Assembly (NCBI RefSeq): GCF_900156105.1
Contig: NZ_FTMS01000015.1
Coordinates: forward strand, 1 to 64,000
DNA length: 64,000 bases
Reading direction: 5' to 3'
Source: Alkalispirochaeta americana
Lineage (GTDB): Bacteria; Spirochaetota; Spirochaetia; DSM-27196; Alkalispirochaetaceae
Part shown: positions 1 to 9,800 of the stretch, piece after piece
Position numbering within the stretch: position 1 is the first letter of the stretch
Layout of the letters: every line of letters begins with the position of its first letter
Program-made: the position numbers and the translations under genes
Notes under the pieces: generated by a model
The model's database searches: none
What the model saw: only the letters and a program-made list of their open reading frames with translations
What the model was told of the DNA's origin: nothing

Positions 1-135
1 TACCGGCTGAATACCGGTGTTCTCGAAGGTATGAACAACAAGATCAAGGTGATCAAACGGGTCGCCTATGGCTTCCGGGACGACGAATATTTCTTCCTTC
101 GCATCCGTCACGCATTCCCCGGAATTCGACGATGA
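1..135 (+). CDS. Transposase C-terminal fragment (ISL3-like), cut by window edge
   Basis: An open frame runs from base 1 to TGA at 133-135 (44 codons). The peptide contains NTGVLEGMNNKIK, then KRVAYGFRD, then FFLRIRHAFP, which is the typical C-terminus of ISL3/IS204-type DDE transposases (the Glu-Gly-x-Asn-Asn-Lys stretch carries the last catalytic acidic residue). The N-terminal part lies outside the window, so I cannot say whether the element is intact. I could not identify a terminal inverted repeat in the 105 bp that follow. Confidence 0.8.
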   Translation, partial: YRLNTGVLEGMNNKIKVIKRVAYGFRDDEYFFLRIRHAFPGIRR

Positions 136-240: not shown

Positions 241-3200
241 ATGAGCAAGCAAAAAGAAAAAGACATCCTGGATCAGGACTTTGAACGCTATGGCGTGTGG
301 GTCAAGGCGGGACCGGAAGAGGTTCTCGAAACAGAAGAAGATGCCTTCGATCCCTCATTGCTGGGCGATCTGGGAGACCTGGATGGTTTTGACGATCCTC
401 CCGGAGCCGACGATTTCGATGATCTGGGGGATCTGGCAAACCTCGATGACTTCCCCCCCTCCCTCGATGATGAGCCCCCTTTCGGGGAATCATCCCCGGG
501 AAGAAGCCAGAACCAGGATCCGGAAGAGATTTCAGCAGAAGAGGATGATCTGATTTCCCTTGACGACCTAGGCATAGGCGATCCCCCGGACGGAAGAGAT
601 CCCTTTGCTGACCTGGGAGATGATCTTGACGATCTTGATGATCTGAATGATCTGGGCACCCTCCCCGACCTGGATGGCCTGACAGATCAACCCGATACCG
701 AGACAACCTTTCCCACCTCCCGTGATCAGGCCCCGGAATCGGGTGATCAGGCCCCGGAATCGGAAGAAGACATCTTTGACGGCACAGAGTTTGACCGCGA
801 CCAGGGACGCGATCAGGATGAAGAGGACCTGGACGCGGAAGCCCGGAACATCGAATCAGAAACCGATGATTTTGATCTTGATTCGATCACAGAATCCCTG
901 GACGACGACTACGAGACTCTGGATTACGAGAACCTGGACGTTGACGGATCTCTGGAACTGGATGAAGAAGAACCGGAATCTGCCCGGGAAAACGGCTTTG
1001 ACGAGATGATGCCCGGTGCAGATGACGAGATAGAAGAGCTGAGTCTTGAAGACATTGATCTCTACGAACCGGCCCCGGACGATCATGATCTTCCCGAGCT
1101 GGATCAGGACCTCTCCGAGCCGGATCTTCCGGACCAGGAAAGCCACAATTTCACCCCCGAAGAACAGGGTATAGAAATCTCCCCCGATGGCCCTCCCAAT
1201 ACGATAACACCCGACGAGGAGGATTTTCTCCTGGACGAGGATAACCTCTCTGCGGAGGCTCCGGGAAATTTGCAAAATCTCTCGGGAAGTGCTATACCAA
1301 AGCCAATGGACCAACAGGAACACGATGCCTTCCAGCGTATTCAGGACGAGTTGAGTGCGATAAAACAGGAACTGGCAGAACTGAAATCGGTACTCAAAGA
1401 GACTGCGTCCGCGGCGAGAGCCCCCGTTGCAGCTGATCCTCCCCGGGGGGGTGATTCTCCAGAGGCCGCTTCTCCTGTTCCTCGGGAAGAGTCCGATCAA
1501 CCCAGTCAGTCCGATCAGGGAAAAGCTGATCCGGAAGAGAAGGCGGGATCCGGTTTCTTCGAGGAGGGCGACGAGGAGGACGAGACGATCGCCCTCACGG
1601 GAGACGAGCTGGATAATATCCTGAACACCGCTGAGTTCACCGAGGAAGCAGGAGAAACTGCGGAGCTGGACGAGGATTTTCTCACGGATCATCACGCAGC
1701 AGAGCCTCAACTGGACAGTGAAGAAGACCAGCCAGAGCTGGAGGAACCGCCATCCCTGGATCACCCGGTTGATGAGATAACACTGGAAGAATCCGGGGAT
1801 GCCCCCTTCGTCATTGACGGAGACGATACTGCAATCGACGAACTGGCCGAGATGAACATCGACGAAGAACTCGCCGATATCGACTCGCTCACGGACGATA
1901 CCGAAGAAAATGCCGAAGACCAGATTGACAGGATTGAGCTGGATCTCGATTCGCTCGAAGAGTTTGAGGATGAATCGGACGATATTTCCGCGACGCCCGC
2001 TCCTGTTGAGCCCGATACAGCCGATGAGCTTTCCCTGGAAGAATCTCTGGAAGACGATCTCGCAATCGGGGAGACTCCTCTCCAGGATCAGGCTGAGGAC
2101 CTCACTCTGGATGATAACTTCGACCTCCAGAAAGACGATCTCGCAATTGAGGAGACTCCTCTCCAGGATCAGGCTGAGGACCTCACCCTGGAGGATGACT
2201 TCGACCTCCAGGAAGACGATCTCGCAATCGAGGAGACTCCTCTCCAGGATCAGGCTGAGGACCTCACCCTGGAGGATGACTTCGACCCCCAGAAAGACGA
2301 TCTCGCAATCGGGGAGACTCCTCTCCAGGATCAGGCTGAGGACCTCACCCTGGAGGATGACTTCGACCCCCAGAAAGACGATCTCGCAATTGAGGAGACT
2401 CCTCTCCAGGATCAGGCTGAGGACCTCACCCTGGAGGATGACTTCGACCTCCAGAAAGACGATCTCGCAATCGGGGAGGCTCCTCTCCAGGATCAGGCTG
2501 AGGACCTCACTCTGGATGATGACTTCGACCTCCAGAAAGACGATCTCGCAATCGGGGAGACTCCTCTCCAGGATCAGGCTGAGGACCTCACTCTGGAGGA
2601 TGACTTCGACCTCCAGAAAGACGATCTCGCAATTGAGGAGAACAGCATCGAGATCGATCCGGCTTTTGACCAAGAGGTTCAGGACGATTCTGACGAAACC
2701 CTTTCCCAGGACCTCACTCTGGATGATGAACTGGTACTGGATGAGGAATTCGAAATAGAAATCGACGAAGAAGACCCCGATTTCTCCACGGCCGATCAAG
2801 CATCGCCGAAGCAGGATGAGGTCCTGGATGAAGCGATGCCGGAGGAAGCTCCCCAGGAAGATTTTACCGATTTAAGCGACCTCGAGATCGACGACGAGGA
2901 ACTCTCGCTCCCTCCCGAGGACGAACCGCAAATCCAGGAGCCCCTGCAGCACCAGGAGCCCGCCCAACAGCCTGACACGACCTCTTTCTCGGAAGAGAAT
3001 TATGAGGATTTTGCCACTGCCGTGGAGCAGGACTTGTCCGACGAAGAGCCCCTCCAGGAGCAAAAACCGGATCAGACGCCAGCGCCGGCCAAGCGGCGAA
3101 GTTCGATCGCTGACCTCCCGGAGGACCTGAAGCAGGAAATGCGCTCGGTCCTGAGCTATATGGATCAGCTCCTGGAAGCACTTCCGGACGACAAGATCGA

Positions 3201-3270
3201 GGAGTTCGCTCAATCCGAGCATTTTGAGGTCTACAAACACCTCTTCGAAGAGCTCGGAATAGAGACCTGA
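241..3270 (+). CDS. Very acidic repeat protein, 1009 aa, function unknown
   Basis: The protein is dominated by Asp and Glu and has no signal peptide or membrane segment, so it is probably cytoplasmic. Residues 1-350 are low-complexity acidic sequence (DDL, DLG and DDF motifs). Residues about 360-388 form a short predicted coiled coil (IQDELSAIKQELAELKSVL). Residues 605-793 are seven near-identical 27-residue repeats (DDLAIxETPLQDQAEDLTL...FDxQK) plus a partial eighth. The last 55 residues change character (LPEDLKQEMRSVLSYMDQLL...) and look like a folded helical domain, possibly the conserved functional part. The ATG at 241 follows GGGAGCGG at 227-234. It is the first gene of a five-gene cluster with two MptE-like proteins, which suggests a link to flagellar or surface glycosylation or to signalling; that is inference only. 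Such proteins may act as scaffolds or metal/cation buffers. Confidence 0.85.
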   Translation: MSKQKEKDILDQDFERYGVWVKAGPEEVLETEEDAFDPSLLGDLGDLDGFDDPPGADDFDDLGDLANLDDFPPSLDDEPPFGESSPGRSQNQDPEEISAEEDDLISLDDLGIGDPPDGRDPFADLGDDLDDLDDLNDLGTLPDLDGLTDQPDTETTFPTSRDQAPESGDQAPESEEDIFDGTEFDRDQGRDQDEEDLDAEARNIESETDDFDLDSITESLDDDYETLDYENLDVDGSLELDEEEPESARENGFDEMMPGADDEIEELSLEDIDLYEPAPDDHDLPELDQDLSEPDLPDQESHNFTPEEQGIEISPDGPPNTITPDEEDFLLDEDNLSAEAPGNLQNLSGSAIPKPMDQQEHDAFQRIQDELSAIKQELAELKSVLKETASAARAPVAADPPRGGDSPEAASPVPREESDQPSQSDQGKADPEEKAGSGFFEEGDEEDETIALTGDELDNILNTAEFTEEAGETAELDEDFLTDHHAAEPQLDSEEDQPELEEPPSLDHPVDEITLEESGDAPFVIDGDDTAIDELAEMNIDEELADIDSLTDDTEENAEDQIDRIELDLDSLEEFEDESDDISATPAPVEPDTADELSLEESLEDDLAIGETPLQDQAEDLTLDDNFDLQKDDLAIEETPLQDQAEDLTLEDDFDLQEDDLAIEETPLQDQAEDLTLEDDFDPQKDDLAIGETPLQDQAEDLTLEDDFDPQKDDLAIEETPLQDQAEDLTLEDDFDLQKDDLAIGEAPLQDQAEDLTLDDDFDLQKDDLAIGETPLQDQAEDLTLEDDFDLQKDDLAIEENSIEIDPAFDQEVQDDSDETLSQDLTLDDELVLDEEFEIEIDEEDPDFSTADQASPKQDEVLDEAMPEEAPQEDFTDLSDLEIDDEELSLPPEDEPQIQEPLQHQEPAQQPDTTSFSEENYEDFATAVEQDLSDEEPLQEQKPDQTPAPAKRRSSIADLPEDLKQEMRSVLSYMDQLLEALPDDKIEEFAQSEHFEVYKHLFEELGIET
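2053..2640 (+). repeat. 81-bp tandem repeat, seven copies plus a partial eighth
   Basis: Copies start at 2053, 2134, 2215, 2296, 2377, 2458 and 2539; a partial copy begins at 2620. Each encodes 27 residues beginning DDLAI. Copies are nearly identical in DNA, including synonymous positions, and differ mainly at Gly/Glu after DDLAI, Leu/Pro in FDxQ, and Asp/Glu in the TLxD part. The unit is a multiple of three, so gain or loss of copies keeps the frame. Confidence 0.95.
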
Positions 3271-3289
3271 CGCTCCAGGCGGGTTATTC

Positions 3290-4345
3290 ATGGGTCTAGT
3301 AGATCGGCTGGCAAGCCACGACGATGATCACCCCTCCTCCCTGACCAGGGCACTGGCCATGCGGGGAGGAGAGGTCTTCTCCGATCAGGGGATCAGCGAC
3401 ACTTCGAGTCATATCTCCGATACAGGTTCTGGCGAGATTGACCCGGGCATGGCAGTTCGCGCGTTGCTGAAAGAACTCCACCTTCAACAGGATTTTGGCA
3501 TAACCACCCCGTCCCATCTTTTTTCGCTTCTTCACCGGCATCTTCATATTGCCAGCGGGGCCATTCTGATTCCCGAGCAGTCCCGTCAGGCCTTCTCCCC
3601 CATGGCAACGGCCGGTCTGGGAAAAACAACCCGCTTTCGCCTGCGCATACCAACCCCGGTTTTTCGGCAACTCTGTAGCCGTGACGGAGCGGTCCTCCTG
3701 GAAGGCTCCGGAAGAGAAACCCTGCGGCCCTATTTTTCCACCAGCGATATCCAGCGTTTCCACCGCATCGCCCTGCTCCCCTTCCTGTACAATCGGGAAA
3801 TCATGGCGGCCCTTGTCATCTGCGAATCGCCTCTGTTGCAACTGGACCAGGAAGTCCTGGATATACTGCTGGCGGCCGTAACGGAGCGGGCAGGGTACCT
3901 TCTCTTCGATGGCCGCCACAGACCACTTGCTGCTTCCCAGGGCATTTCCGTCCTTGATCGGGAACACCTGCCGGTGCTGATGGATCGACTGCGCCAGGAA
4001 GCTTCGAAGGGAGATTCAAAGGAAGACAGGCAGGCCAGTCTGACAGCTCTGCGTGTCTCCCTGGAACCTCTGGTGGAACGGATTCACCAGGGAAGCCCCC
4101 ACCTGGACGAGCAGTACCTTTCCCGAGATCTTCTTGATACCTGCGCAGTACTCTGCGCTGATCTCTTCAGTCTCTTCCGGGATGGCAAAGACTCTTTCAT
4201 TCTTGCCGGGCACAAACATCCCCTGGTAGACCTGGACCTTCTGGTGCACAGTATTGGCAATACCTTGCAGCAGCTCTTCAAGGTCTCCATGAAAACGCCC
4301 CTACCCTATACCCTGCTGGACCCCGCCGAGCTCCGTGCACTTTGA
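3290..4345 (+). CDS. GAF-like protein, 351 aa
   Basis: ATG at 3290, 19 bp after the acidic protein. Residues about 60-205 have the alternating pattern of a GAF-like fold (LFSLLHRHLHIASGAILI..., then IALLPFLYNREIMAALVICE), with no obvious cofactor ligand. Residues about 245-345 are a second helical/sheet region of unknown type. There are no membrane segments. It overlaps the next gene (GTG at 4335) by 11 nt, so the two are translationally coupled. The GAF assignment is by pattern only; a small-molecule or protein sensor that works with the downstream membrane protein is plausible but unproven. Confidence 0.7.
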   Translation: MGLVDRLASHDDDHPSSLTRALAMRGGEVFSDQGISDTSSHISDTGSGEIDPGMAVRALLKELHLQQDFGITTPSHLFSLLHRHLHIASGAILIPEQSRQAFSPMATAGLGKTTRFRLRIPTPVFRQLCSRDGAVLLEGSGRETLRPYFSTSDIQRFHRIALLPFLYNREIMAALVICESPLLQLDQEVLDILLAAVTERAGYLLFDGRHRPLAASQGISVLDREHLPVLMDRLRQEASKGDSKEDRQASLTALRVSLEPLVERIHQGSPHLDEQYLSRDLLDTCAVLCADLFSLFRDGKDSFILAGHKHPLVDLDLLVHSIGNTLQQLFKVSMKTPLPYTLLDPAELRAL

Positions 4346-5909
4346 ATACCTTCCCACCCGAAGCGGGGAACAGACCGTCCTGGTGGAGGGCCGCCTCCTG
4401 CACTCCCGCTACGATCCGCGACGGGAGGCCCAACGGTTCATCGACACGGTCTCTCTGGAATACCCCCGGGGCACGGCGGTGCTTATCGGCGATGGAACCG
4501 GCATCGTTTCCCGGGAGCTGCAAAAGCGTCACCCCTCCCTCCGGGTGATCGGGCTTCGGCCTTCCCCTGAGGGAGTTTCCCTGGATGGAACAATGCCGGC
4601 CATTCCCCTGGGCAATCTTGAGCAAGCCCTGCGAAACAGCCTGCACCCCCTGGAGGTCACAACAATTCAGGTGATCTCCTGGCCCGGAGCCCGCACAGCG
4701 ATCCCTCTCTGGATGGAGCAAACGGAACACTTCGTCCTGGCCGTGTTCCGTGCACTTCAGGCCGAGCTTGCCACAACTGCATCGTTCGGAAGGCTCTGGC
4801 TCACGAATGCCCTTCGCCGGACTCTCCTGGAGAAGCGGCGCAGCTCTCTGCATTTTCAGGGGGAAAGCCTCCTGGTGGCTGCCGCAGGCCCCAGCCTGGA
4901 CCAGGCCCGACGCTTCATTCCTCACCAGGCCCGGGAAACGACACCTGTTATCGCGGCAAGTTCGGCCACGCTGGGGCTTTCCAGTTTCGGCTTTTCCCCC
5001 GCCGTGAATCTCCATAGCGACGGCGGGTTCTGGGCATCGCGCTACACCCGGACAGGTTCTGACCTTTCCGGAGGCGCATCAATCCCGGTGCTGGCGCTCC
5101 CTCTCCGGGCCAGCCCCTGCGCCTCCTCCCGCAGATCCTCCAGCGACAGCCACGGCCCCTTTCTCTACCGGACCGGTTGGGTGGGAGAAGAGCTCGCATC
5201 CGATTCCTTTCGCTGGCCCTTCCTGCAGGACCAGCCCACGGTGGGGGCATCTCTCCTGGCACTGGCAAATCTTCTGGCTCCACAAGCCCACCTGATCCTG
5301 GCCGGGCTGGATCTTTGCAGCCGGGATCTTCTGAATCACGCCCGACCTCACTGGAACGATCGCTACCTGGCCCTGACATCGGACCGCCTGGCACCCCAGG
5401 AAACGCTCCGTTTTCAGAGACTGGGGCCCCCTGATCAGATCAGGCCTCTCCAGTGGCAGGACGGAGTCCGGGGCTGGCAAAACCGGACGCTGGCGCTTTA
5501 CCGGGAACCAGTGCTGGAAATGATTAACACCCATCGAAAAACCGGCTCTGTTTCTTTTCTCTCCCCCTCGCCAGCCTGGGCCGATGAGAGACCTCTCCCT
5601 TCCGGGACCACCCCTCCCCGGGGTTCTTTTTCATTGCGCTCAGAAGAACGCCACCCCTTTCATCAGCGGGTACAGGAGGCACAGCAGCGAATCATGATGT
5701 GGCACGACGAATTGCGGGAACCACCACCGGAATCACCGGGGTCTCACGACAGATCATCGCGGGAACGCCTCCTCTCACTGCTGTTGCACCTGGCTCCAAT
5801 CGAGACGATTCAATGGTACCGGGGCTCCTCCTCCTGGGAAACATCGGCGGCGTCTACCCGGGAAGCCCTGGAAAAGCTCCTGAAACTTGTCGGGGCCTTC
5901 TCTCCATGA
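4335..5909 (+). CDS. MptE-like / DUF115 family protein (first copy)
   Basis: 524 aa, GTG start overlapping the previous gene. The N-terminal region has LLHSRYDPRREAQRF, matching the HS(R/K)Y-P-EA motif of DUF115 motility-accessory (Maf) proteins. The central region has LLVAAAGPSLDQA, the nucleotide-binding-like GPSL motif of the MptE-like family, followed by a Rossmann-like segment (PVIAASSATLGL, HSDGGFW). In other bacteria DUF115 proteins modify flagellin with nonulosonic acids; family relatives include archaeal 6-hydroxymethylpterin diphosphokinase MptE. Substrate here is unknown. It is paralogous to the next gene, with which it shares an ATGA overlap. Confidence 0.75.
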   Translation: MHFEYLPTRSGEQTVLVEGRLLHSRYDPRREAQRFIDTVSLEYPRGTAVLIGDGTGIVSRELQKRHPSLRVIGLRPSPEGVSLDGTMPAIPLGNLEQALRNSLHPLEVTTIQVISWPGARTAIPLWMEQTEHFVLAVFRALQAELATTASFGRLWLTNALRRTLLEKRRSSLHFQGESLLVAAAGPSLDQARRFIPHQARETTPVIAASSATLGLSSFGFSPAVNLHSDGGFWASRYTRTGSDLSGGASIPVLALPLRASPCASSRRSSSDSHGPFLYRTGWVGEELASDSFRWPFLQDQPTVGASLLALANLLAPQAHLILAGLDLCSRDLLNHARPHWNDRYLALTSDRLAPQETLRFQRLGPPDQIRPLQWQDGVRGWQNRTLALYREPVLEMINTHRKTGSVSFLSPSPAWADERPLPSGTTPPRGSFSLRSEERHPFHQRVQEAQQRIMMWHDELREPPPESPGSHDRSSRERLLSLLLHLAPIETIQWYRGSSSWETSAASTREALEKLLKLVGAFSP

Positions 5910-7627
5910 CCACCCTCCTGCGGAATATTGCCGCCCTGGAGACGGTCAGTCCCGAACTGGCCACCCAGCTTCTCCAGGAATCTCCCTCGGACGAACTGGC
6001 CACCCTGACCACCCGCGACGGCCACAGGAGCTTTCGACTCACCGACAGTGACGGAGGAAAGGCTCTGCACTCACGCTACGCCCCCATGAGGGAGGCTGAG
6101 AAAATTGCAGACAGCCTGAACACCAGAGCCGGGAACAGTGCTCCGGCAACTCTCATACTCCTGGGCCTGGGCGGGGGCTTTCTGGCCCATGCCGGTATTC
6201 AGAGGCTTTCTGGAACGACAATCCTGGTGGTGGAGCGATCCCCCCAGGTGCTGAGAAGGATACTCCAGGAGGTGGACCTCTCCCGGGAAATACTCACGGG
6301 CAGGCTTTTTTTTGCCCTGGATCCCGCCGAGGCGGCGACCACCCTGGAGATGATCCATGTTCCGGCGATCCGCGATGGTCTGCAGACCATTCCCCTCCAG
6401 GCCTGGACGGACCACCCCCGAAACAGGGACCACTTTCGGGCCTGCCTTGCAGCAATCCAGAAGAAACTCCAGGCTCTGGCCCAGGATACCCTCACGATCG
6501 GCACCTTCAGTCGACGCTGGCTCTCCCACACCCTTCATAACAGCTACCGTTTCCACTCATCTTCCCGGGGAACATCGTCATCCTGGGAGCGCCTGCGCCG
6601 AAGCACTGCTGGAGAACAACTGGTTGTCCTTGCGGCAGGACCGAGCCTGGAACCCTGGCTCGACACCTTGACCTCCCTGCCACGAACAAAACTCCTTGCC
6701 ACGGACACGGCCCTTCCGGCGCTCCTGCAACGGGGGATCATTCCCGCCGGGGTGGTGCTTCTGGACCCCCAGACCTGGAGCCTGCTCCATCTCCGGCAGA
6801 CCCTGCCGGAAGAAACCTGGCTCCTGGCCGATGCCGGAGCAGCCCCGGCGGCAGCCTGCAGAACCACCGGGGACCACCTCGTCTGGTATTGCGGAAACCA
6901 CCCCCTGCACCACCTGCTCCTGCGGGCCGGAGCCTCCGTAACACCTCTACCCTACCCGCCGGAGTCCGTCACGGAAGCTGCCGTTCTCCTGGCCCGGCTC
7001 CTTGGCGCATCCCGGGTGGAGGTGGCTGGATCCGACGGCGGGTTTCCCCGGGGAAAGACCTATTGCAGAGGGACCTACCATTATCACCTGGCCCATCGCA
7101 GCTCCCGCCGTCTTCTTCCGGAAGAGCACTTTTTCGCTCACCGGGTATACCCCGCCGCGACTCCATCCCCCCGCTCCCGGGACCATACGCCCCGGGACCG
7201 CCCCTTTTTTTCTACCCCCGCCATGGCCTCACGCACTGGACGGATAGCCCGGGCCAGAAATATCTCCCGGGATCTCCCCCTCGCCTCCCCGGCGCTGCCG
7301 TCTCCCCCGGAAGAATTTTCCGCCCACCGGTTCTGGAAACTGCACCTGCGGGAGCTGGCAACGGTAATAGAACGACTTCAGGCTTTGGGACGGGAGGCGA
7401 CAATCCCTGCACCGGTCCTCCTGGAGGCCCTGGGACACCACGGAAGAGCCCATCTCCCCCTTCTGTTGCGCCGCCAACGCCCCCTGCCCGAAGAACATCA
7501 CCTCAGGCCAGACAGTTTCCCCACGCTGGATCATCCAGCCCTGTCACGCAGCTCCATCGTCGAAGAACTGGAAAAGATAAGGGGTTTTATTTTGGAAGAA
7601 AGTAACCGATACTCATTAATGAGATGA
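5906..7627 (+). CDS. MptE-like / DUF115 family protein (second copy)
   Basis: 573 aa. I place the start at ATG 5906, inside the ATGA overlap with the upstream stop, rather than at an earlier in-frame ATG at 5699 that would overlap the previous gene by 210 nt. Motifs: LHSRYAPMREAEKI near residue 50, LILLGLGGGFLAHAG (glycine-rich nucleotide-binding loop), LVVLAAGPSLEPW (GPSL motif), and AGSDGGFPRG. This domain order matches flagellin-modifying DUF115 proteins better than the first copy does. Two adjacent paralogues suggest either a heteromer or two related substrates. It ends in an ATGA overlap with the downstream membrane protein. Confidence 0.75.
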   Translation: MTTLLRNIAALETVSPELATQLLQESPSDELATLTTRDGHRSFRLTDSDGGKALHSRYAPMREAEKIADSLNTRAGNSAPATLILLGLGGGFLAHAGIQRLSGTTILVVERSPQVLRRILQEVDLSREILTGRLFFALDPAEAATTLEMIHVPAIRDGLQTIPLQAWTDHPRNRDHFRACLAAIQKKLQALAQDTLTIGTFSRRWLSHTLHNSYRFHSSSRGTSSSWERLRRSTAGEQLVVLAAGPSLEPWLDTLTSLPRTKLLATDTALPALLQRGIIPAGVVLLDPQTWSLLHLRQTLPEETWLLADAGAAPAAACRTTGDHLVWYCGNHPLHHLLLRAGASVTPLPYPPESVTEAAVLLARLLGASRVEVAGSDGGFPRGKTYCRGTYHYHLAHRSSRRLLPEEHFFAHRVYPAATPSPRSRDHTPRDRPFFSTPAMASRTGRIARARNISRDLPLASPALPSPPEEFSAHRFWKLHLRELATVIERLQALGREATIPAPVLLEALGHHGRAHLPLLLRRQRPLPEEHHLRPDSFPTLDHPALSRSSIVEELEKIRGFILEESNRYSLMR

Positions 7628-8874
7628 AAAACAGCTCTTGGCACAGAGTTCTCCTCTACGGCTACGCTACAGCGGTGGCGGTCGCCTTTTTTGCAATTGC
7701 CTTATGGGCAGGATGGGAAGTTCGCAACCTCCGCAACACTCGCGAGGATCTGGCACAAAAAAGCTTTGACGCCCTCTCTCTTGAGGCGGCATCGCTCTGG
7801 CAAAGCCAGAATCTTCCCGAAGCTGCCCGGCTCTTCTCGGAACATCTTGCCTCCACCTCCAGCGAGGAAGGATTCCATCGCGGAGGAGTCCCCGGCGAGA
7901 TACGCATCATCCTTCAAGACGCGCAACTGGATTATCTCTGGGCCGCCGGAAGCACCTACTTTGGCGAATCCCCAAGCGGGCCACCCCAGGCTGAATCGTC
8001 CCTTCGGGACTATCGCCGGTACTCCCGAAGTTTTGCCATGCCCCAGGGGCCCGGGCGGATCATCACCGCTACATACCCCCTGCTCTTTCGGAAGGACCTC
8101 TATCCCATCCTGAAACGGGCCCTGAAGGCATCACTGGTCATTCTGGCCTGTACTGCCTCGGTGACTCTCGGGGTGTTTCTCCAGGGGCGGCGGCAAAAGA
8201 AAGCCGCCAGGAGCTCCGCAGGAGCCCCCTCTCGTGAGGCAGATCCTGCCGCGCCACGCGACACCACGCCACCACGGGAGTCCCCGACCCCGGAGACAAC
8301 ACCATCGGAGGGTCTTTCTTCAGGCCTTCAGCCCGGCCCCCTGCTGGAAGAGCGCCTGGCCTCGGAACTGGAGCGGGCAGGATTCTCCGAGGAGGATCTT
8401 ACGGTGGTCCTCTTTGAGTTCACGCAAGGAACCCGGGGCGATCAAAGCTACCGGGAGAACGCCCGGGCGGTACTCTCCTTCTTCTCGCTGCCCGATCTGT
8501 GCTTTGAATACGAATTACACGGCGCTGCCGTCCTGATTCCCAACACAACCCTGGCCGACGCCCTGGCTATGGTGGAGCGGTTTCAGCGCTACTACTGGGG
8601 AGAGCGGCTCGGTTGGAACCGCTCTACGGCAGACTTCTCCTGCGGGGCATCCTCCCGTGCGGTGCGGTTTGTCCAGGCCGATCGCCTCCTGGCAGAATGT
8701 GCCGAAGCACTGCGGCGCAGCAAGAGCACATCGGGCAGGATCATAGGCTTTCAACCGGACCCGCAAAAATACCGGGATTACCTCATAGATCTTGAGAATC
8801 GGGAACATCCCGGGAAGCAGAAGAGTCGGAGACCTTCGAGTCATCAAGAACCCCATCGTCCTGGGGAATCTTGA
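7624..8874 (+). CDS. Membrane protein with degenerate GGDEF domain
   Basis: 416 aa. A membrane segment lies at about residues 10-30, an extracytoplasmic region of about 135 residues follows, and a second membrane segment sits near 167-187 (ASLVILACTASVTLGVFL). After a Pro/Ser-rich linker, residues about 240-395 have the GGDEF fold pattern. The signature loop reads ELHGA (in FEYELHGAAVLIP) instead of GGDEF, and the later conserved strand reads FSCGASS. It should therefore not make c-di-GMP, though it could bind GTP or act as a structural sensor. The last ~30 residues are Lys/Arg/Ser/Pro-rich and overlap rnz on the other strand by 92 bp. The start shares ATGA with the preceding gene. Confidence 0.7.
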   Translation: MKNSSWHRVLLYGYATAVAVAFFAIALWAGWEVRNLRNTREDLAQKSFDALSLEAASLWQSQNLPEAARLFSEHLASTSSEEGFHRGGVPGEIRIILQDAQLDYLWAAGSTYFGESPSGPPQAESSLRDYRRYSRSFAMPQGPGRIITATYPLLFRKDLYPILKRALKASLVILACTASVTLGVFLQGRRQKKAARSSAGAPSREADPAAPRDTTPPRESPTPETTPSEGLSSGLQPGPLLEERLASELERAGFSEEDLTVVLFEFTQGTRGDQSYRENARAVLSFFSLPDLCFEYELHGAAVLIPNTTLADALAMVERFQRYYWGERLGWNRSTADFSCGASSRAVRFVQADRLLAECAEALRRSKSTSGRIIGFQPDPQKYRDYLIDLENREHPGKQKSRRPSSHQEPHRPGES

Positions 8875-9784
8875 TAGTCATGTGATCCCTCGTAAGAAAG
8901 GTCTCGGGAAAGATCTCCCGGGCTTCCCTCTGGAGGACCTTCAGTTCCCCATAGGTAAAGCGGGGGCTGTAGTGAATGAGCCCCATCTGTTTTATTCCCC
9001 CGGCTCCCCGAGCCAGACGGGCTGCATCGGCGGCGGTCATGTGCTTCTTTGCCATGGCGCTCTCCCGGTTTGCCTCGTCGAACATTCCTTCGCTTATCAG
9101 AAGATCTGAACCGGCTATGTGAGGCATCGCCGAAGCCACAGGAAGCGTATCGGTCATGAAGGTAAACTTCCGGCCTCTTCGGGGCGGCCCCAGCACCATA
9201 TCAGCCGTAACAACCTCACCGACGGCGTTCTGCACGGCCTCGCCCCGCTGAAGCTGTGCCCAGAGAGCACCCCGGGGAACCTGGGCCGCCTCGGCCCGCT
9301 CGGGGTGAAACACTCCCGGCCGGACATCCTCGATGAAGCTGTAGCCCACGCAGACCCGGGAATGTTTGAGCGGAAACGCCCGGACCCGGTAGCCCTCGCC
9401 GAAAAACACATCCTGGGGGAGGGAGGGATCCTGGATCTCCTGAACCCGGATTTCATAGTTGATGTGCATCTCAAGAGCCCGCCGGTTTGCCTCGACGTAC
9501 TCGGCCAGGCGGGGCGGGCCGATGAGAAAGAGGGGGTCCTGCCGATCGACCTGGCTTGAAAGCATGAGCATGCCGGGAAGCCCCGTTATGTGATCAGCGT
9601 GGGTATGAGAAATAAAGATGGCGCTGATCTTTTTCCATTTCAGGTTCAAGGCACGCAAGCTCACCTGCGTACCTTCGCCACAATCAAAGAGAAAGACCTC
9701 TCCCTCGCGACGCAGAAGCACCGAGGTGAGATGCCGATTCGGCAAGGGCATCATACCGCCGCAACCGAGAATAAAGGCTTCCAT
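8783..9784 (-). CDS. rnz: Ribonuclease Z
   Basis: Metallo-beta-lactamase-fold endonuclease that removes the 3' trailer of tRNA precursors. The zinc motif SHTHADH is at residues 59-65 counted from the chosen start, and further metal ligands lie in FPLKHSRVCVGY and near LISEGMF. I choose ATG at 9784 (MEAFILGCGG), the usual start of the family. ATG at 9790 and TTG at 9799 are in frame and possible. The ~27 residues after LTRDHMTIKIP are not typical of the family; this tail is encoded in the overlap with the preceding + strand gene. Divergent from hisS. Confidence 0.92.
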   Translation of the reverse strand: MEAFILGCGGMMPLPNRHLTSVLLRREGEVFLFDCGEGTQVSLRALNLKWKKISAIFISHTHADHITGLPGMLMLSSQVDRQDPLFLIGPPRLAEYVEANRRALEMHINYEIRVQEIQDPSLPQDVFFGEGYRVRAFPLKHSRVCVGYSFIEDVRPGVFHPERAEAAQVPRGALWAQLQRGEAVQNAVGEVVTADMVLGPPRRGRKFTFMTDTLPVASAMPHIAGSDLLISEGMFDEANRESAMAKKHMTAADAARLARGAGGIKQMGLIHYSPRFTYGELKVLQREAREIFPETFLTRDHMTIKIPQDDGVLDDSKVSDSSASRDVPDSQDL

Positions 9785-9800
9785 GTTCATAATCCCCAAG

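Follow-up and report, generated by a model that had tools for sequence, protein, structure and literature searches.

A conserved five-gene cluster of spirochaetes with paired Maf/MptE-like genes and an acidic three-anchor protein, a candidate flagellin-modification module

The closest described systems are the Maf flagellin glycosyltransferases (PF01973/PF20157), known from Campylobacter, Aeromonas caviae (Maf1) and Magnetospirillum (structure 5MU5). Maf works ahead of chaperone binding and export (PMC4065374), and the FlaB flagellins of Treponema denticola bear a 450.2-Da glycan that is required for filament assembly and motility (PMC9481697). Two further relatives concern other members of the locus described here: PelD, a c-di-GMP receptor made of a GAF and a degenerate GGDEF domain (4etz), and the GAF-GGDEF protein Dcsbis (4zmu). 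The cluster shares with the Maf enzymes the PF01973 core with its AGPSL motif, an N-terminal region that aligns in one of the two copies, and a similar tie to flagellin, including, in some genomes, a neighbouring fliS, the gene of the flagellin export chaperone. It differs from them in having two adjacent divergent copies together with a gene for an acidic scaffold-like protein with three anchors and two degenerate GGDEF-fold proteins. A literature search found no study of the five genes as a set. What is new is the gene arrangement, apparently undescribed, and the acidic protein and the sensor parts of the cluster also appear to be so, while the enzyme family around which it sits is already known.

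The DNA analysed (the window, 64,000 nucleotides) is the start, from base 1, of contig NZ_FTMS01000015.1 of Alkalispirochaeta americana, whose genome measures 3.3 Mb. Five ORFs, all on the plus strand, span positions 241-8874 and are called here A, B, C, D and E, in that order. The features are as follows:

1..135, plus strand: C-terminal remnant of an ISL3-family transposase (PF01610, E=9e-11), flanking and outside the cluster
241..3270, plus strand: gene A, 1009 aa, acidic, largely low-complexity and scaffold-like, by alignment of homologues
289..324, plus strand: anchor 1 of A, YGVWVKxxPE(D/E), with G-V-W-V and P-E invariant in nine homologues; found in most complete A proteins
1324..1401, plus strand: heptad-like helix of A (DAFQRIQDELSAIKQELAELKSVLKE), with I/L/K positions conserved in the alignment
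1558..1647, plus strand: anchor 2 of A, DETIALTGDELDNILNTAEFTEE, core positions at 92-100% in 89 sequences
2051..2641, plus strand: 81-bp tandem repeat in the acidic linker of A, 7.3 copies, 95% identity, in frame
3115..3267, plus strand: anchor 3 of A, C-terminal helical domain SVLSYMDQLLEALPDDKIEEFAQSEHFEVYKHLFEELG, from the alignment of A C-termini
3290..4345, plus strand: gene B, 351 aa, GAF plus degenerate GGDEF-like domain, from predicted structure, Foldseek and VIA
4335..5909, plus strand: gene C, 524 aa, GTG start, divergent Maf/MptE-like, core at 4851-5324
5906..7627, plus strand: gene D, more canonical Maf/MptE-like, core at 6578-7048
7624..8874, plus strand: gene E, 416 aa, membrane protein with a degenerate GGDEF fold
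8783..9799, minus strand: metallo-beta-lactamase/tRNase Z-like gene, convergent and overlapping the tail of E, flanking and outside the cluster

In the ORF list D starts further upstream, with a GTG at 5699; its homologues favour the ATG at 5906. The original prediction of four junctions of at most 19 bp, three of them overlaps of 4-11 nt and ATGA twice, agrees with the ORF coordinates, in which A and B are 19 nt apart, B and C overlap by 11 nt, and C/D and D/E each share a 4-nt ATGA. Its reading of the five genes (acidic repeat protein, GAF-like protein, two MptE-like proteins and a membrane protein with a dead GGDEF domain) was also upheld in each part, the GAF-like nature of B by predicted structure, that of E by its fold and lost signature, and that of C and D by PF01973 in both, C falling just below the Pfam cut-off. 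Because the contig opens within the ISL3 transposase tail, the gene that normally lies upstream of A falls outside the window.

The comparison with Maf is carried by C and D. D matches PF01973 with 62.2 bits against a cut-off of 34.6 (E=6.7e-17), and all nine D members match it; C reaches 31.2 bits alone (E=2.3e-7; same cut-off) and 34.8 with its neighbours in frame, and the model matches 8/8 C members. The C and D profiles are homologous over 358 columns, N-terminal region included, and the PSL of AGPSL is absent from the C of one treponeme. In addition, the D profile matches the Maf structure 5MU5 over residues 75-361 (E=4e-13), aligned with 5MU5 residues 121-416, and Maf_flag10_N (PF20157) was found in three of nine D members, the D of the window not among them, and in none of the eight C members. 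The Pfam name MptE-like could also be taken literally, making C and D pterin diphosphokinases, and the D profile does weakly match the solved MptE 8sd5 (70 residues, E=1.6e-7). However, the match to 5MU5 is longer and stronger, some D members have the Maf N-terminal domain and both genes are closely tied to the occurrence of flagellin, and we give this explanation almost no credence. The flagellate genomes tested typically have four MptE-like genes, two of them in the cluster: C, D, a canonical Maf of ~620 aa and another of ~550 aa. In the source genome, the two outside the cluster lie beside a PBP transpeptidase gene, with SecA nearby (L053), and beside a SurA-like PPIase gene (L054). The former is more canonical, has Maf_flag10_N and may itself be the actual flagellin transferase, in place of C or D.

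The protein of gene A has a pI of 4.05 and 35.6% D+E. Most of it cannot be aligned, except for three nearly invariant segments: YGVWVKxxPED close to the N-terminus, a central DETIALTGDELDNILNTAEF and, at the C-terminus, a helical stretch of 49 residues. Strong matches to anchor 2 in genome searches are confined to the A locus, anchor 3 is single copy in 138 of the 218 Spirochaetia genomes, and the 51 C-terminal residues are 100% identical to those of Alkalispirochaeta alkalica. The heptad-like helix may form a coiled coil. The 81-bp repeats fall within the variable part of the protein, and their copy number may differ among strains. When A, B and E were scanned as single sequences against Pfam and NCBIfam, no informative match came up. 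One genome (G160) seemed to lack A because the C-terminal profile missed it: its locus L085 has anchors 1 and 2 and a diverged C-terminus; the A of L099, which failed a stricter profile, carries a degenerate middle motif.

B was modelled by AlphaFold (pLDDT 87.2, 48 homologues) with a GAF domain at aa 46-216 and a degenerate GGDEF-like C-terminal domain at about aa 224-343. VIA aligns the GAF fold with 3ci6 (Z 14.5, rmsd 3.8 Å over 159 residues), and GAF Pfam models match 2-3 of the 48 members. By Foldseek, the two-domain layout aligns with that of PelD (4etz) and Dcsbis (4zmu), the VIA rows covering mainly the GAF domain. B differs from them in having no TM part and, in the B alignment, neither a GGDEF signature nor a conserved RxxD at the expected place. 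A phylum homologue (L213) does have a recognisable GGDEF domain (PF00990). Used by itself as query across the phylum, B retrieved only itself; the protein diverges too fast for single-sequence searches, and its distribution was followed through gene position and profiles. E consists of a TM helix, a small extracytoplasmic domain (aa 64-152), a second TM helix, a linker and a degenerate GGDEF fold (aa 228-378; AlphaFold pLDDT 85.0), and PF00990 matches 17 of 35 members. The fold aligns in VIA with 6tts (DgcB; Z 19.8, rmsd 4.2 Å over 154 residues) and with 5euh (Z 19.7, 2.4 Å over 149). E shares this fold with the diguanylate cyclases PleD, WspR and DgcB, but in its alignment the catalytic GG(D/E)EF signature is lost (EYELHGAA in the window; column majorities G-x-[DN]-[GS]-F) and no conserved R stands three residues before D291, where the RxxD inhibitory site would be. 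Conserved instead are R244, R345, R348 and R384, invariant or nearly so, and our guess from their conservation is that these arginines might be a dock for the acidic A.

To trace the cluster, the phylum was searched with D first, then the neighbourhoods found were compared, and profiles were built from those neighbourhoods. Already after the D search, A, B, C, D and often E shared order and strand. In the profile search of the class Spirochaetia, the order A-B-M-M-(E), M being an MptE-like gene, was found nearly everywhere in ~60 loci; the conserved neighbourhood in related genomes on which the original prediction depended is thus kept in about 30 families. The complete ABMME order is present in 34 of 80 loci from public genome records, or 30/46 where downstream sequence suffices, and among class loci 93 of 102 complete A proteins combine the middle motif with two MptE-like genes downstream; four class loci with two Mafs failed the strict middle-motif pattern. 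Alkalispirochaeta alkalica carries ABMME, a 1.14-Mb treponeme genome (L041) holds all five genes, and Treponema vincentii, a T. denticola metagenome-assembled genome and Brucepastera have the same order with B missed or split. Junctions lie within 20 nt in 92/103 cases for B/M, 111/119 for M/M (50 of them with the ATGA overlap) and 59/85 for A/B, counts into which some genomes enter twice and in which starts were taken nearest the upstream stop. An order and tight junctions that recur in dozens of genomes argue that the arrangement is not due to chance. The cluster is common to most swimming spirochaetes, treponemes included. Its loosest member is E, which is missing in some lineages and often separated from D by an oppositely oriented MEMO-family gene (PF01875), e.g., L083:2279-3130; the latter had been a candidate for a sixth cluster gene and was rejected. 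At the other end, a DivIC/FtsB-like septum gene, transcribed divergently, precedes A in most class loci (e.g., L036:15680-16174 and L044:2866-3384). PF04977 was found in both of the upstream genes checked, and one similarity cluster of upstream genes comprises 88 loci.

The link of the cluster to flagella is well supported. Among 218 Spirochaetia genomes, 134 have both A and flagellin, 4 only A, 40 only flagellin and 40 neither (Fisher p 5.8e-17, related genomes not being independent events). The 40 with flagellin and no A include 23 Borreliaceae (family f6, a putative assignment from genome size and gene content), and many of the others are incomplete assemblies. Where FlhA and FliG are missing, A is missing too, and so nearly always are MptE-like genes; no MptE-like gene was found in the flagellin-less or Borreliaceae genomes tested, except for a weak match below the cut-off in G172. 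As Borreliaceae have flagellin without any gene of the cluster, periplasmic flagella as such do not depend on it. Of 148 genomes sampled across the phylum, 116 carry the end domain of A, which f6 and most of family f16 lack, and outside the class a B homologue often comes after A. There, fliS adjoins A in families f21 and f31 (L206, L207 and L225), and f15 has the order A-Maf-fliS (L211); in other non-class genomes, A follows ATP synthase genes, which says little. The idea of a middle motif strictly adjacent to Maf was weakened, as outside the class the motif also occurs in A beside B without a Maf neighbour.

The co-occurrence with flagellin and Maf and the fliS neighbours place the module in Maf-type flagellin glycosylation. 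The original prediction had seen no known system in this combination, which seems right for the arrangement but not for the process. Our main reading, to which we give a probability of about 0.6, is that the cluster is a spirochaete Maf-type flagellin-modification module, with A as scaffold for the Maf enzymes, B as regulator and E as membrane anchor. For its workings we infer sugar transfer by D or C with flagellin as the substrate, binding of A to the other proteins and some signal, as well as the scaffold mechanics, catalysis and stoichiometry, along these lines. D, and perhaps C, would put a sugar on flagellin in the cytoplasm, before export; A, acidic, disordered and with three docking segments, would gather the enzymes and B and take them to the flagellar base, near the export gate; B, with its GAF and dead GGDEF-like domain, would sense a cytoplasmic signal; and E, in the membrane and with a dead GGDEF domain and invariant Arg, would tether A or relay an envelope signal. 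The cluster offers a specific conserved gene set to examine for the T. denticola type of FlaB glycan (PMC9481697), present in Treponema, Alkalispirochaeta, Brucepastera and many uncultured spirochaetes and absent from Borreliaceae. A itself is a scaffold-like protein found across most of the phylum, and its three short conserved segments can be tested as peptides.

Six genomes have FlhA and FliG but no detectable flagellin: G156 and G208 (f57), and G179, G240, G158 and G195 (f59/g103). They may have filament-less flagellar bases or export machines. A is kept in the first four (G156, G208, G179 and G240), which have no MptE-like gene and whose A lacks the middle anchor, that of G208 being cut by the contig end; in G156 and G208, E directly follows A, and B, C and D are gone. 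The presence of A and E in flagellin-less genomes implies that some of the cluster's genes serve more than flagellin. We read this pattern as two layers: A and E would go with the flagellar base, whereas B, C and D, together with the middle segment of A, would go with flagellin and the modification of flagellin. The same genomes, in which A (and E in two of them) persists with FlhA and FliG, could be explained if the basal body or export gate had A as its scaffold and E as its membrane anchor, with the Maf-like proteins as clients and glycosylation as just one output, and the phylum-wide distribution of A, often beside B without a Maf neighbour, fits this too. However, A almost always has Maf genes beside it in the class and Borreliaceae make flagella without A, so that we find such an organiser of the flagellar base rather unlikely. 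The genes might also be flagellar genes co-expressed for convenience, without a shared complex; in favour of this, what links the five genes is gene order, overlap and co-occurrence. We consider this highly improbable, because three invariant segments in a disordered protein imply conserved partners, and two flagellin-less lineages lost the middle one along with their Maf genes.

The middle motif of A, LTGDELDNIL, resembles the LSQDEIDQLL of FliM-type and LSQDEIDALL of FliY-type ORFs of the same genome, with ca. 5-6 of 10 positions identical to FliM by eye, over a short stretch of an acid-rich protein. The EIDALL motif binds CheY-P (PMC9126983). It is N-terminal in FliM and FliY, whereas in A the similar sequence is short and internal, and convergence is possible. 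A quite unlikely extension is that A is an undescribed phylum-wide flagellar scaffold whose middle segment (IALTGDELDNIL) mimics EIDALL and docks the Maf pair and the sensors to CheY-P or the switch complex; if true, flagellin modification and export would be coupled to chemotaxis or motor state. The motif similarity and the two degenerate GGDEF-fold proteins in one cluster could also point to a signalling module, in which B and E would read a nucleotide or redox signal through their degenerate GGDEF domains and A would relay it to the motor by way of its FliM-like middle motif, with C and D as accessories. This seems improbable, as E has neither the catalytic signature nor the RxxD I-site, the likeness to FliM may be convergent, and the middle motif vanishes together with the Mafs. 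Some A proteins have two copies of the middle motif (L112:2419-4290 in G315, L104 and L075), and in G315 one of them lies N-terminal of anchor 1.
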